64,000 bases of DNA. It comes from Desulfoscipio geothermicus DSM 3669 (GTDB taxonomy: Bacteria > Bacillota > Desulfotomaculia > Desulfotomaculales > Desulfallaceae). Within the stretch, counting starts at the first letter, position 1. Each line of letters opens with the position of its first letter. The notes under the pieces were generated by a model. It was not told the origin of the DNA. It ran no database searches and was given only the letters and a program-made list of their open reading frames with translations. Made by a program: the position numbers and the translations under genes. This document shows, piece after piece, positions 35,094 to 48,517 of this stretch. Location of the stretch: NCBI RefSeq assembly GCF_900115975.1, contig NZ_FOYM01000001.1, forward strand, positions 124,001-188,000, written 5' to 3'.

Positions 35094-35552
35094 ATGAAAA
35101 TAATTGTTGACGCCGACGCGTGTCCGAAAAATGTGCTGCAAATATGCTCCCAAACAGCCCGGGAGTTTACCGTCCCCCTGCATACCGTAGCCAGTTTCAA
35201 CCATAATATAGTTTCCGACCATCATACCACGGTGGGGAACGGGCCCCAGGAAACGGATCTGGCCGTCGTCAACATGACGGCCGGCGGCGATATAGTGGTC
35301 ACCCAGGACTGGGGGCTGGCCGCCCTGGCGCTGGGCAAGGGTGCGGCGGCCATTTCCCCGGGCGGAAGAATTTTTAAGCAAGACACCATTGATTTTCTGC
35401 TGGAAGAGCGGGAAGTCAAGGCCCGGCTGCGCCGGGGCGGCGGTCGAACCAGGGGGCCGCGCAAACGCACGGCGCAGGACGACGGTCGTTTCGCCGCCGG
35501 CCTGCGCCGGTTGATCAAGGAGCGCCTGCACTCAACCCGCCCCGTATTGTAA
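35094..35552 (+). CDS. UPF0178 (YaiI/YqxD, DUF188) family protein
   Basis: 152 residues starting [11 protein letters not shown], the family signature, followed by '[26 protein letters not shown]' (key block V-T-Q-D-W-G-L-A) and a basic C-terminal tail with '[12 protein letters not shown]'. The conserved Asp residues and PIN-like fold hint at a nuclease-like activity, but no function is established. The ATG at 35094 is chosen because of the GGGGGTG site; the upstream in-frame extension overlaps the DegV gene. The 3' end overlaps the convergent thiZ-like gene by 21 nt. Confidence 0.88.
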
Positions 35553-36296
35553 TGCCCGCATGATTTGTTTCTTTAATGCCAAAAACCGTTCTGTTGTAAC
35601 CATTTCCACCTGCCGCGGCCTGGGCAAATCAATGTTGAGGTGCAGGCACACCCTGGCGGGGCGCGGCGTAAGCACGTACACCCGGTCAGCCAGGAATATG
35701 GCTTCGTCTATGTCATGCGTCACGAAAAGCACGGCCTGCCGGAAATTATCCCACACCTGGAGCAACCACTGCTGCATGCGGTTCCTGGTGATGGCGTCCA
35801 GCGCTCCGAAGGGCTCGTCCAACAGCAGCACCCGCCGGCGGGCCAGCACGGTGCGCATCAGGGCGGCCCGCTGCCGCATCCCGCCGGAAAGTTCCGCCGG
35901 GTAACTGTTTTCAAAACCTGACAGCCCAAACAGGGGCATCAGTTCCATCGCTTCCTTTTTCACCGCGCGGCTGTCTTCCCGGGTGGCCCGCCTGGCCAGG
36001 ACAACATTATCCAGCACGGTGCGCCACGGCAGCAGCAGGTCCTTCTGGGGCATGTAGGATACCGCTTCCCCGGCCCGCACTCCGGCCCGCCCGCCCAGCA
36101 GCACCCGGCCCCGGTCGGGCTCGGTCAGCCCGCAAATAATGTTAAACAGGGTGCTTTTACCGCAGCCGCTGGGCCCGATGAGACTGACAAACTCCTTTTC
36201 CTCCACCTGCAGCGAAACGCCGTCCAGCACGGGCAGCGACACACCGTTCATCCTATATGATTTGGCTACGTCCTCCAACAAAATTTCCAACGTCAT
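35532..36296 (-). CDS. thiZ: ABC importer ATPase, thiamine-precursor type (ThiZ-like)
   Basis: 254 residues of the nitrate/sulfonate/HMP-precursor ATPase family. Walker A is 'GPSGCGKST', signature '[13 protein letters not shown]', Walker B '[12 protein letters not shown]' and the switch His in '[11 protein letters not shown]'. The substrate assignment rests on its operon partners: thiN, a thiamine-binding DUF77 protein and a NMT1-like binding protein. It should energise uptake of a pyrimidine precursor such as formylaminopyrimidine or HMP. It is the last gene of the salvage operon. A taurine/nitrate type importer would be the alternative without this context. Confidence 0.82.
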
Positions 36297-36347
36297 ATTC
36301 TCTCCCGTTAGCCTCCCGGCGTAAATCCCCGATAAAAATCCCGGTAT

Positions 36348-37343
36348 TTAATTTGGAAGAAATTGATTGGTGAAAGCCTTATCTGCCTCAATCATTCCGG
36401 GCAACAGCTTGTGGTCGTACATCCAGCGGGCGTAGCGTTCCCAAACCTCCGCCTTTTGCTCGCCCCAGCGGTCCGCGTCATCCCGGTAGCGGGGGCTCAG
36501 GTACCGCTGGCTGGCCAGCACCAGTTCCTCGTTTAACTCCGGCGCGTGTTTGAGCAGTATCCGGGCCGCTTCATCGGGATGCGCAATGGCAAACTCATAT
36601 CCCCTGGTTGTGGCCCGCATGAATTTTTGCACCAGCTCCGGGTTTTCCTTTATCAGCTTTTCACCGGTGATCAAAACCGGCGTGTAATAATCCAGCGCCC
36701 GGTCCAATTCGCGCAGTTCGATATAGTTTAAATCCAGTCCCCTTTGCTCGGCCTCTATGCCGGTCCAGCCGTAATAAATCCAGGCAAAGTCCACGTCCCG
36801 CTCAATGGCGGTGAAAAAGTCGGACGTGCCGATATTCAATATTTCCACTTTGTTAAAATCTCCACCGTCGTTTTCCACCACCGCCTTCAGCACGGCTTCC
36901 TCGGTGGGCGAACCCCAGCCGCCGTAGCGCTTGCCTTCCATATCGCGGGGGCGGGTTATCCCCGCTTCCTTTTTGGAGGCAAATCCCGAAGTGTTGTGTT
37001 GAATCACCGCGGCTATGGATACCACCGGCACATCGCCGGCCCGGGCCTGGGTCACGTCTTCCTGGTACCCCACGCCGAATTGGGCCTGCCCGGTGGCCAC
37101 CAGCTGCGTAGTGCCTCCCTGGGTGGGTTCCACAATTTCCACCTGCAGCCCCTCATCCTTATACCAGCCTTTCTCCAGCGCAACATAAAGACCGGTATGG
37201 TTGGTGTTGGGCACCCAGTCCAGCATCACGGTGACGGGCTGCAAATCCCGCTTTACCTCCTCGGGCGACCCGCCGCCGGACGCACAGCCCGCCAGCGCCA
37301 CCAGGACCAGCATAAGAACCGCTGCCAAAATTTTTTTGCGCAT
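36348..37343 (-). CDS. thiY: ABC importer binding lipoprotein, thiamine-precursor type (ThiY-like)
   Basis: 331 residues. A signal peptide with lipobox L-A-G-C (about 16-19) is followed by an NMT1/ThiY-like periplasmic-binding domain: 'VTVMLDWVPNTNHTGLYVALEKGWYKDEGL' (key block D-W-V-P-N-T-N-H-T-G), 'GQAQFGVGYQEDV' and 'FAWIYYGWTGIEAE'. The 'DWxPNTNHTG' block is typical of proteins binding pyrimidine precursors of thiamine. It is exported and anchored to the membrane. Its start codon touches the stop codon of the permease gene. Lipidation should occur on Cys19. Confidence 0.87.
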   Translation of the reverse strand: MRKKILAAVLMLVLVALAGCASGGGSPEEVKRDLQPVTVMLDWVPNTNHTGLYVALEKGWYKDEGLQVEIVEPTQGGTTQLVATGQAQFGVGYQEDVTQARAGDVPVVSIAAVIQHNTSGFASKKEAGITRPRDMEGKRYGGWGSPTEEAVLKAVVENDGGDFNKVEILNIGTSDFFTAIERDVDFAWIYYGWTGIEAEQRGLDLNYIELRELDRALDYYTPVLITGEKLIKENPELVQKFMRATTRGYEFAIAHPDEAARILLKHAPELNEELVLASQRYLSPRYRDDADRWGEQKAEVWERYARWMYDHKLLPGMIEADKAFTNQFLPN

Positions 37344-38105
37344 TCAATCATTTCCCCTTTCGTTAAAATACCACGGCATGGCCAGCCGGGCAAAAAATTC
37401 AATCAAAGCGTAAATCAATAAACTGACCAGCGAAATAATAACAATAGCGGCAAAAACCCGGTCCAGCTGGTAAGCATGGGTGGCCCTGGTCATAAACACC
37501 CCCAGGCCGCTTCTGGCCCCCAGCCACTCGCCGATTACCGCGCCCATTACGGCATAGGTGCCCGCTATTTTGAGGCCGGCGAAAAAGGAGGGCATGGCGG
37601 CGGGAAACCGGACCAGCCTGATGATTTGCCAGCGGGAAAAACCCATCACCCGCAGCAGGTTGACCATGTCGGGGTCCGCGGCCTCCATGCCCTCCACCAT
37701 GCTCACGGCTACGGGGAAAAAGCAGACCAGCGCCACCACGACCACCTTGGGCAAAATGCCCAGCCCGAACCAGATCATAAACAAAGGCGCGACGGAAATA
37801 ATCGGCACGGTTTGCGATATGACCAGCAGCGGGTATATGCCCTGCCTGACCCAGGGGGAAAAATCCATCAGCGCCGCCAAGGCCAGCGCCACCAGCACAG
37901 CCGCCAAAAGGCCCGCTGCCGCCGCCAGCAAGGTGTTTTGGGAGTGCCGGGCCAACAGCGGCAGCATGTCCCACAGGGTTACGGCCACCCGTCCGGGCGC
38001 CGGAAGCAGCCACGGCTGGATGCCCGTCAGGCGCACGCCGGCCTCCCACGTTAACAGAAACGCCAGTATAAACCCCAACGGCGCCATTAATTTATTTCGC
38101 AGCAT
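37344..38105 (-). CDS. thiX: ABC importer permease, thiamine-precursor type (ThiX-like)
   Basis: 253 residues with six membrane spans and the binding-protein-dependent permease motif 'EGMEAADPDMVNLLRVMGFSRWQ' (EAA-like loop, key block E-A-A-D-P). It forms the channel for the ThiYZ partners encoded immediately downstream. It overlaps the 3' end of the DUF77 gene by 14 nt, indicating translational coupling. The ribosome binding site is weak, as expected for a coupled gene. An internal ATG at codon 7 could also serve. Confidence 0.85.
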   Translation of the reverse strand: MLRNKLMAPLGFILAFLLTWEAGVRLTGIQPWLLPAPGRVAVTLWDMLPLLARHSQNTLLAAAAGLLAAVLVALALAALMDFSPWVRQGIYPLLVISQTVPIISVAPLFMIWFGLGILPKVVVVALVCFFPVAVSMVEGMEAADPDMVNLLRVMGFSRWQIIRLVRFPAAMPSFFAGLKIAGTYAVMGAVIGEWLGARSGLGVFMTRATHAYQLDRVFAAIVIISLVSLLIYALIEFFARLAMPWYFNERGND

Positions 38106-38391
38106 GCCTGTATTTGCCCACCTTCTCTTCCATGGTCACCCCTTGTGGAGCATAGTCTATTTTGACCAGCGTCATCACCCGCTTCGCTCCGGCATCAATA
38201 CAGGCCTGCTGGGCCCGTTTGACTATTTCCAGCAGTTCATCCAGTTCGCCCTCCATGGTGGTTTCCATGGGGCCCACTTCGTACTTGACGCCCGATTGCT
38301 GTACAACCGCAATAGCCCGGTCCACTACGGGATAGGTGTCCCCGCCGGGCACCTGGGGCAGTACTTGAAAACTCACGTTTATAGTAGGCAT
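38092..38391 (-). CDS. Thiamine-binding protein, MTH1187/YkoF-like (DUF77)
   Basis: 99 residues with the DUF77 pattern: an N-terminal beta strand 'INVSFQVLP', 'YEVGPMETTMEG' in the middle, and 'GAKRVMTLVKIDY' near the end. Members form ferredoxin-like tetramers and YkoF binds thiamine or HMP. In this operon it lies between thiN and the importer, so a carrier or sensor role in thiamine uptake is likely. It abuts thiN (1-nt gap). The direct biochemical role is still inferred from the family. Confidence 0.85.
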   Translation of the reverse strand: MPTINVSFQVLPQVPGGDTYPVVDRAIAVVQQSGVKYEVGPMETTMEGELDELLEIVKRAQQACIDAGAKRVMTLVKIDYAPQGVTMEEKVGKYRHAAK

Positions 38392-39045
38392 TTATAATTC
38401 ACCTCTATCTGAAGGTCTGATCAATAACAGCAGACCCGTCTTAATCGAAATCTCAGCCCTGCCGGCGGCCAGCCGGTTGCTGACACCGTACGGGTTGCCG
38501 ATACAGAAAGTGGCGTCCTGCAAAGGCCAGCGGGCGCCGGTGACGTTAACCCCGGTGACTTGCTCGGTCAGGGGCAGCAGGGAAAACGCATCCCCGGGGT
38601 CCCCCGCCAGCACTACCCGTTGTCCGGGTGCCACCAGGGTGATCTCATTGTATTCATTCATAATCCGGGCCTTTACACCCCGGTCATGGGCCACCCGCAG
38701 CAAATGTACATTGGCCAGGGAGTGGTCAAACCGGGTGCCGATGGCCCCCAGGATGATAATTTCCTCCGGGCCGCCGGCCAGAGCTTCGGCCAGGGCCAGG
38801 GCGGTATCGGTATCATCCTTTTCAACGGAATACTCCTTGATAAGCGCCCCCTGCCCGGCAAACCGCTCCAGGTCCGCCCGGTCAATGGAATCCATGTCGC
38901 CGATGATCACATCGGGAACCAAACCCAGCGCGGCGGCGTATCCTGCTCCCCCGTCCACGCAAATAATGCGGTCGTCTTTTTTTATAACCCCGGCCAACCA
39001 CTGAAAATTATCCACGGCGCCTCCGGTCAATATAGCGGTACGCAT
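38392..39045 (-). CDS. thiN: Thiamine diphosphokinase
   Basis: 217 residues. The TPK catalytic domain has 'CVDGGAGYAAALGLVPDVIIGDMDSID' (key block D-G-G-A... I-G-D-M-D-S) and 'KDDTDTALAL', which hold the metal and pyrophosphate. The C-terminal thiamine-binding beta-sandwich ends in 'GNPYGVSNRL'. It pyrophosphorylates imported thiamine to TPP in one step. It is first in the salvage operon. The only TPP riboswitch nearby on this strand lies about 600 nt upstream, beyond two genes on the opposite strand. Confidence 0.92.
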   Translation of the reverse strand: MRTAILTGGAVDNFQWLAGVIKKDDRIICVDGGAGYAAALGLVPDVIIGDMDSIDRADLERFAGQGALIKEYSVEKDDTDTALALAEALAGGPEEIIILGAIGTRFDHSLANVHLLRVAHDRGVKARIMNEYNEITLVAPGQRVVLAGDPGDAFSLLPLTEQVTGVNVTGARWPLQDATFCIGNPYGVSNRLAAGRAEISIKTGLLLLIRPSDRGEL

Positions 39046-39141
39046 TCAATCACCTTCATTTCAAATTACTTCATTACTTTAATAAGCCGGCACATAATTA
39101 TTTTACGCCGGGAAAAAATATTTACAAAGGAGGTGTCGCGT

Positions 39142-39402
39142 GTGCTGGGCATATTTAAAGCAATGAACGCCAACAAACCTCAATTGCGGGAATTTGACCC
39201 CGCCACCATTCAAAGAATCAAAGAAGGAGCTTACCTGGTAAAAATAATTTCCGAAACCCAGGTGGCCGCCCGCAAATGCGATTTTTATGCCGGCAACGCC
39301 GTTGACCAGGAAGTTAGAAATGCCTTTGCAGACGAGGCCAAGTTATTGAAACAAGGCCTTCGCCCCTTACAACAGTATTATGAAGCTATGACTATGGAGT
39401 GA
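39142..39402 (+). CDS. Small helical protein, possibly spore-coat or CotF-related
   Basis: 86 residues, mostly helical and charged ('IKEGAYLVKIISETQVAARKCDF', key block E-G-A-Y-L-V-K). A GTG start at 39142 is preferred because AAAGGAGG lies eight bases upstream; the frame is open much further back, but only as the antisense of thiN. It is followed by a second small gene 7 nt later, making a two-gene plus-strand unit embedded between thiN and its riboswitch. The resemblance to coat F-type ferritin-like helices is loose and could be wrong. Confidence 0.55.
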   Translation: MLGIFKAMNANKPQLREFDPATIQRIKEGAYLVKIISETQVAARKCDFYAGNAVDQEVRNAFADEAKLLKQGLRPLQQYYEAMTME

Positions 39403-39409
39403 TAAACAG

Positions 39410-39604
39410 ATGAAATTCACGGACATGGATATGCTGCAGGATTACGAAAAAGATGCCAGAATGGCGGCCATGGCCTACGCTATAATTGAAACGGAAATAA
39501 TAGATCCCGATTTGCGCAAAATTATTGCTAAGGCAGCCGGCGCCGCAGCCAAATCGCAGCAAAAATTTGCGGATTTAATAATCAAAAAGGGAGACCGCCC
39601 GTAA
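39410..39604 (+). CDS. CotF-like small helical protein
   Basis: 64 residues. The pattern 'FTDMDMLQDYEKDARMAAMAYAIIETE' (key block D-M-L-Q-D-Y) followed by 'IIDPDLRKIIAKAAGAAAKSQQKF' resembles the spore coat protein F (ferritin-like) repeat, in which a Tyr and 'E..nP.LR' are conserved. Coupled closely to the preceding gene. If this assignment holds, both genes would be expressed in sporulation, but no sporulation sigma promoter was identified with confidence. Confidence 0.6.
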   Translation: MKFTDMDMLQDYEKDARMAAMAYAIIETEIIDPDLRKIIAKAAGAAAKSQQKFADLIIKKGDRP

Positions 39605-39625
39605 ATTGCGACATCAACGTAAAAA

Positions 39626-39747
39626 GCGCACCCCGGCAGGTAGGTGCGCATACATTTTGAATACCTTCCCTACGCGGGCATTACCCCGATCAGGTCCGTG
39701 GGTCAGGTGCTCGGCAGCCCTTTCTCAGCCCATGACATGAGCTCCCC
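39626..39747 (-). ncRNA. TPP riboswitch with terminator, upstream of the thiN operon
   Basis: The minus-strand aptamer (39664-39747) has the conserved blocks GGGGAGCTC, GGGCTGAGAAAGGGC, ACCTGATC and GGTAATGCCCGCGTAGGGAAGG, in the usual order. It is followed by a GCGCACC/GGTGCGC terminator with TTTTTA (39621-39649). With TPP bound, transcription should stop here. Without TPP, it would read through 39604-39140 antisense to the two small genes and into thiN. Confidence 0.95.
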
Positions 39748-39776
39748 ATTTGGCAGGTTTATTTTACAATAAATAG

Positions 39777-39805
39777 ATTATATAACCTACATAACATCAA
39801 GTCAA
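39777..39805 (-). promoter_or_regulatory. Sigma-A promoter of the first TPP riboswitch
   Basis: TTGACT, 17 nt, TATAAT on the minus strand, 30 nt before the aptamer. Confidence 0.85.
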
Positions 39806-39879: not shown

Positions 39880-39917
39880 TGTCAAACCTTGACATCTTGC
39901 CTAAACCCAATTATATT
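39880..39917 (+). promoter_or_regulatory. Promoter and candidate operator of hdrCBA
   Basis: TTGACA (39889-39894), 17 nt, TATATT. The -35 box forms the right half of an inverted repeat TGTCAA-ACC-TTGACA (39880-39894), with another TTTGTCA nearby upstream. A repressor could compete with RNA polymerase here. The leader is about 145 nt and AT-rich. Confidence 0.65.
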
Positions 39918-48331: not shown

Positions 48332-48456
48332 AAAGCGCGCACCCCATAGGCTAGGTGCGCGCTAATCTTTACCTTACCTACGCAGGCATTACCCTGATCA
48401 GGTTTAAGGGTCAGGTGCTTGTTAGCCCTTTCTCAGCCCATAACATGAGCTCCCCC
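48332..48456 (-). ncRNA. TPP riboswitch with terminator, upstream of thiSGHEC-thiD2
   Basis: The minus-strand aptamer (48372-48456) has GGGGGAGCTC, GGGCTGAGAAAGGGC, ACCTGATC and GGTAATGCCTGCGTAGGTAAGG. The expression platform is the GCGCGCACC/GGTGCGCGC terminator with a TTTAATTTT tail (48335-48362). An extended -10 promoter TGCTATAAT lies at 48502-48510. It should shut down thiazole and pyrimidine synthesis when TPP is plentiful. Confidence 0.96.
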
Positions 48457-48517
48457 AGAAACAATAATGAACACACTTTTTGTCGTTGTTAACTTTATAC
48501 AATTATAGCAGAAAAAA

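Follow-up and report, generated by a model that had tools for sequence, protein, structure and literature searches.

The window, by which we mean the whole 64,000-nucleotide stretch that was analysed, contains on its minus strand a TPP riboswitch and a thiamine operon headed by thiN, and between these two elements lie two small genes of the opposite strand, named here orf1 and orf2. The coordinates of the features are given in Table 1. The thiN gene is the sole full-length copy in the genome and is, on comparison with relatives, the ancestral target of the riboswitch.

Table 1. Features of the thiN riboswitch locus and the evidence for each (positions are those of the window).
Feature	Position	Strand	Evidence
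ThiXYZ-type ABC transporter (permease, NMT1/THI5-like binding protein, ATPase), remainder of the operon	35532..38105	minus	Pfam, NCBIfam
MTH1187-family thiamine-binding protein, thiN operon	38092..38391	minus	PF01910, E 2.5e-30
thiN, thiamine pyrophosphokinase	38392..39045	minus	TIGR01378, E 1.7e-52, and Pfam; TPP riboswitch upstream in 11 relatives
Inserted segment relative to Bu1-1, about 550 bp	39066..39615		Flanks of L026 align on both sides; borders ± roughly 10 bp
orf1, 86 aa, GTG start, partner of orf2	39142..39402	plus	Homologues, purifying selection, predicted helical hairpin
orf2, 64 aa, Coat_F family	39410..39604	plus	Pfam PF07875 and homologues
Riboswitch intrinsic terminator	39626..39649	minus	8 bp stem (6 G-C) followed by TTTTT
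TPP riboswitch aptamer	39652..39758	minus	Rfam RF00059, 63.7 bits, model positions 1-105 complete
Promoter of the riboswitch RNA, TTGACT-17-TATAAT	39777..39805	minus	11/12 consensus positions; counterpart in relatives

Two further elements were observed in the window. A second TPP riboswitch is located about 9 kb from the first (48358-48466, minus strand, 70.1 bits) and has downstream of it a thiG-thiH-thiE-thiC operon, the gene names of which derive from the translations and from relatives and not from a family scan. In addition, a near-consensus promoter on the plus strand (TTGACA-17-TATATT, 39889-39917) probably serves hdrC-hdrB-hdrA.

The view put forward in a preliminary description of this DNA, that two plus-strand genes separate the riboswitch from thiN by ~580 nt, was borne out, and both genes are intact. 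Each is preceded by a strong Shine-Dalgarno sequence, and the two are adjacent and in constant order in about 20 homologous loci. A search of 113 genomes of the order gave orf1 homologues in 19 at E <= 0.001, a few of these hits being weak, and the genome collection contained 14 loci. When the pair of the window was compared with those of relatives, dN was 0.06-0.15 while dS was above 1.6 or saturated, which corresponds to strong purifying selection. Together, the Shine-Dalgarno sequences, the ~20 loci of co-occurrence and the purifying selection indicate that orf1 and orf2 are genuine genes.

The same description had called both genes coat-like, a label that holds for orf2 and not for orf1. 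The window copy of orf2 scored 25.0 bits against PF07875 (Coat_F), 0.7 below the cut-off of 25.7, and Coat_F matches at E <= 1e-3 were obtained for 13 of the 23 orf2 homologues (best 1e-7), which places orf2 in this family. A Pfam search with the orf1 family gave no match. The idea that orf1 might be a second Coat_F protein was dropped, as it does not match PF07875 and as comparison of its profile with that of orf2 was not significant. The AlphaFold models of orf1 (pLDDT 86.7) and orf2 (pLDDT 92.3) are each a helical hairpin. A distant orf1-like sequence containing a stop codon is present elsewhere in the same genome (L087, G000:C60:65906-66073).

Since the genome encodes SpoIVA, the organism very likely sporulates, and a role of orf2 in the spore would be reasonable. 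The pair is probably expressed only in sporulation. CATA boxes were found upstream of orf1 at 14 of 22 loci, as compared with a mean of 6.4 and a maximum of 13 in mono-nucleotide shuffles, and the SigE-like sequences CATACAAT or CATACACT are present upstream of orf1 in two relatives. Full SigE/SigK patterns upstream of this gene are rare, the number of loci having them is within the range of the shuffles, and the window has none; a sporulation sigma promoter for the pair is for these reasons only suggested.

How the pair came to lie at this position is best seen in Desulfallas sp. Bu1-1 (G008, locus L026), where, in the neighbourhood known from the window, the genes for the transporter, the thiamine-binding protein and thiN are followed by the riboswitch and then by hdrC and hdrB on the opposite strand. 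The Bu1-1 locus lacks orf1-orf2, the terminator of its riboswitch is about 45 nt from thiN, and its own orf1-orf2 pair is present on a different contig. An opposing gene was absent at all 11 thiN-linked TPP riboswitches of the relatives examined, Bu1-1 included; the riboswitch normally adjoins thiN. This uninterrupted site and the 11 relatives without an opposing gene strongly support a lineage-specific insertion of the pair between riboswitch and thiN, a possibility that the preliminary description had offered as its alternative. The neighbourhoods of the pair are mutually unrelated in the six relatives compared, which suggests that the pair relocates often; at none of about 20 other loci is it next to thiN. 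The arrangement was absent from all examined relatives that have either thiN or the pair, and a survey covering about 150 TPP riboswitches of the order, all but a few of the weaker matches, yielded no second case in which real genes of the opposite strand separate the aptamer from its cognate gene. Other candidates for such a case in the order were judged by eye to be shadow ORFs overlapping thi genes in sense orientation, or else ORFs that are short and spurious. Transposition or site-specific insertion was discarded as the mode of entry, as the insert contains no transposase and neither a target duplication nor a terminal inverted repeat is conspicuous. Judging from the gene orders in the relatives, the leader of the thiN riboswitch is a site of repeated gene gain and loss.

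Some riboswitches of relatives show other changes. In G015 an intact sense-strand ORF of ~115 aa, assigned by eye to a DsrE-like family, is located between terminator and thiN (L019, C6, riboswitch at 151350-151458, minus strand), and G012 (L024) has a decayed remnant of this ORF. In G013 a TPP riboswitch has been duplicated over about 310 bp (L203 and L204, C1:186382 and 191556), the duplication including a truncated start of the gene downstream of the riboswitch. The first of these copies is orphaned and is followed only by opposite-strand genes, which by eye are ABC-transporter-like.

The riboswitch of the window corresponds in most respects to the preliminary description, in which it had its own promoter and terminator on the minus strand and extended from 39626 to 39747. 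Promoter, terminator and the limit at 39626, which is the end of the terminator, stand; the upper limit of the aptamer is at 39758 instead. The score of the aptamer exceeds the gathering cut-off of RF00059 (54.3 bits), which makes it a member of this family, and falls within the range of 54.7-79.5 bits obtained for the above-cut-off riboswitches of relatives. Relatives have an equivalent promoter in front of their thiN riboswitch, and they also carry terminators homologous to 39649-39626. The sequence following the aptamer is predicted to pair with the 5' arm of the terminator as an antiterminator (-11.9 kcal/mol, with a z of only -1.4 against shuffles), the geometry of which matches that in relatives although the sequence has changed. 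As the riboswitch is comparable to those of relatives in its score, its terminator and its predicted antiterminator pairing, no decay of it is seen; no decay after the insertion is visible, and we infer that TPP-dependent regulation has been retained. The insertion may also be recent, in which case the riboswitch would be intact merely as a recent survivor.

With promoter, aptamer and terminator intact and an antiterminator predicted, a read-through RNA that crosses the pair and enters thiN is plausible. Neither of two features that the preliminary description had named as speaking against it was found in convincing form between the terminator and thiN, namely a separate promoter directly before thiN and a small minus-strand gene directly after the terminator. 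No convincing minus-strand promoter was detected between 39625 and thiN, the promoter-like TTGTAA-16-TAAAAT (39127-39100, minus strand) having 9/12 consensus positions, which is at chance level. Neither did a search for a hidden minus-strand gene give a convincingly translated ORF, as no frame combines a ribosome-binding site with a meaningful length, the best one being a 35-codon frame with a TTG start at 39173. In the same interval there is no strong minus-strand terminator, and the single candidate, at 39509-39492, is a weak one of 5 bp.

An alternative to read-through is that the insertion uncoupled the riboswitch, in which case thiN would be transcribed from a local minus-strand promoter within 39046-39141 and the leftover RNA would end at the terminator or shortly past it, through the action of Rho. 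Rho is encoded in the genome, and in B. subtilis it suppresses antisense transcription of such kind (PMC5540618). The predicted read-through RNA is 580 nt long, untranslated, pyrimidine-rich and antisense to the pair, so that with Rho present transcription may stop short of thiN. Orphaned TPP riboswitches moreover exist in the family, for example the duplicate copy in G013, and the promoter-like site before thiN would fit as the local promoter. Its chance-level match and a riboswitch that has not decayed argue against uncoupling, which we therefore regard as rather unlikely while giving it some weight.

The explanation that we favour, and consider fairly probable, is that the pair was inserted in the leader and that the riboswitch still gates thiN by read-through, with antisense RNA as mostly a by-product. 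A two-gene operon, consisting of orf1 and the Coat_F gene orf2, would have entered the leader that the riboswitch provides to the thiamine salvage operon, bringing its own upstream region along, and would have come to lie between terminator and thiN with its genes facing the other way. At high TPP transcription would terminate at 39626, whereas at low TPP the polymerase would cross the antisense strand of the pair over 580 nt and proceed into thiN. This would make the locus a noncontiguous operon gated by a riboswitch. RNA antisense to the coat-type genes would then arise mostly as a by-product, because the pair is probably expressed only in sporulation. Since no plus-strand terminator is recognisable between the pair and the riboswitch, mutual antisense would also be possible.

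Parts of this arrangement have counterparts in known systems. In noncontiguous operons, such as menE-menC-MW1733-ytkD of Staphylococcus aureus (reviewed in PMC7154746), genes of one strand are split by a gene of the opposite strand, and the overlapping transcripts could regulate each other. The same gene order is present here, with the opposite-strand pair between the riboswitch leader and thiN, and the resemblance concerns gene order only. Unlike in menE-menC, what lies beyond the opposing genes is a riboswitch leader instead of upstream coding genes, and co-transcription is a prediction. Riboswitch-controlled antisense RNAs are exemplified by aspocR of Listeria, which responds to vitamin B12 (rli39), and by the SAM-responsive S-box antisense RNA of ubiG (ubiGmccBA) in Clostridium acetobutylicum (PMC7154746, PMC2258182). 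As in these systems, a riboswitch, here predicted to be terminated by its ligand, is located upstream of a region antisense to opposing genes, here those at 39142-39604, and the read-through RNA would be antisense to them. The riboswitch of the window differs from both in belonging to the TPP class. Unlike the RNAs of aspocR and ubiGmccBA, its read-through RNA would also lead to the normal cognate gene, thiN. Further differences are that no metabolic connection is known between the ligand and the opposing genes, and that the arrangement is not conserved. With the Desulfallas operons of TPP riboswitch, thiN and transport genes the locus shares aptamer, terminator, thiN, thiamine-binding protein and ABC genes, and it differs from them by the opposite-strand pair between terminator and thiN.

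From the geometry, TPP-controlled antisense RNA over the coat-type genes would be possible, which raises the question whether the arrangement has been selected as a device in which the pair is controlled by an antisense RNA whose level depends on TPP, low TPP silencing the pair and high TPP relieving it. The geometry itself, the intact riboswitch and terminator and the precedents in Listeria and C. acetobutylicum are in line with such a device. It is nevertheless improbable, as the arrangement was found in one genome only among those searched, as transcription of the pair likely falls in sporulation, a stage at which the vegetative promoter of the riboswitch may be weak, and as there is no known reason that ties TPP to orf1-orf2. 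We hold equally doubtful a two-way scheme in which thiamine shortage would activate salvage and silence the pair by the antisense leader, and in which the transcript of the pair, by extending into the riboswitch, would repress thiN in sporulation. That an assembly or binning artefact joined two loci is very hard to believe: the genome is a draft of 83 contigs and the arrangement is unique to it, but the locus is inside a 300 kb contig, clean homologous flanks surround both junctions, and the assembly is 99.99% complete with 0.24% contamination.

In a 2007 survey of riboswitches the data set contained no further aptamer in antisense position, and for some aptamers remote from related genes a possible origin as orphans left by rearrangement was suggested (PMC2258182). 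The case described here is intermediate between antisense riboswitches and such orphans, being rearranged, apparently intact and not conserved. It provides a clean natural example in which genes entered a riboswitch leader past the terminator while the riboswitch shows no visible decay, and in which the uninterrupted site can be compared. Should the polymerase read through, the locus would indicate that antisense riboswitch RNAs and noncontiguous operons can originate by insertion, before there is selection for an antisense effect. The arrangement is a modest, lineage-specific curiosity and probably an accident of gene movement; accident aside, a shortage of vitamin B1 could here yield an RNA that opposes coat-type genes.
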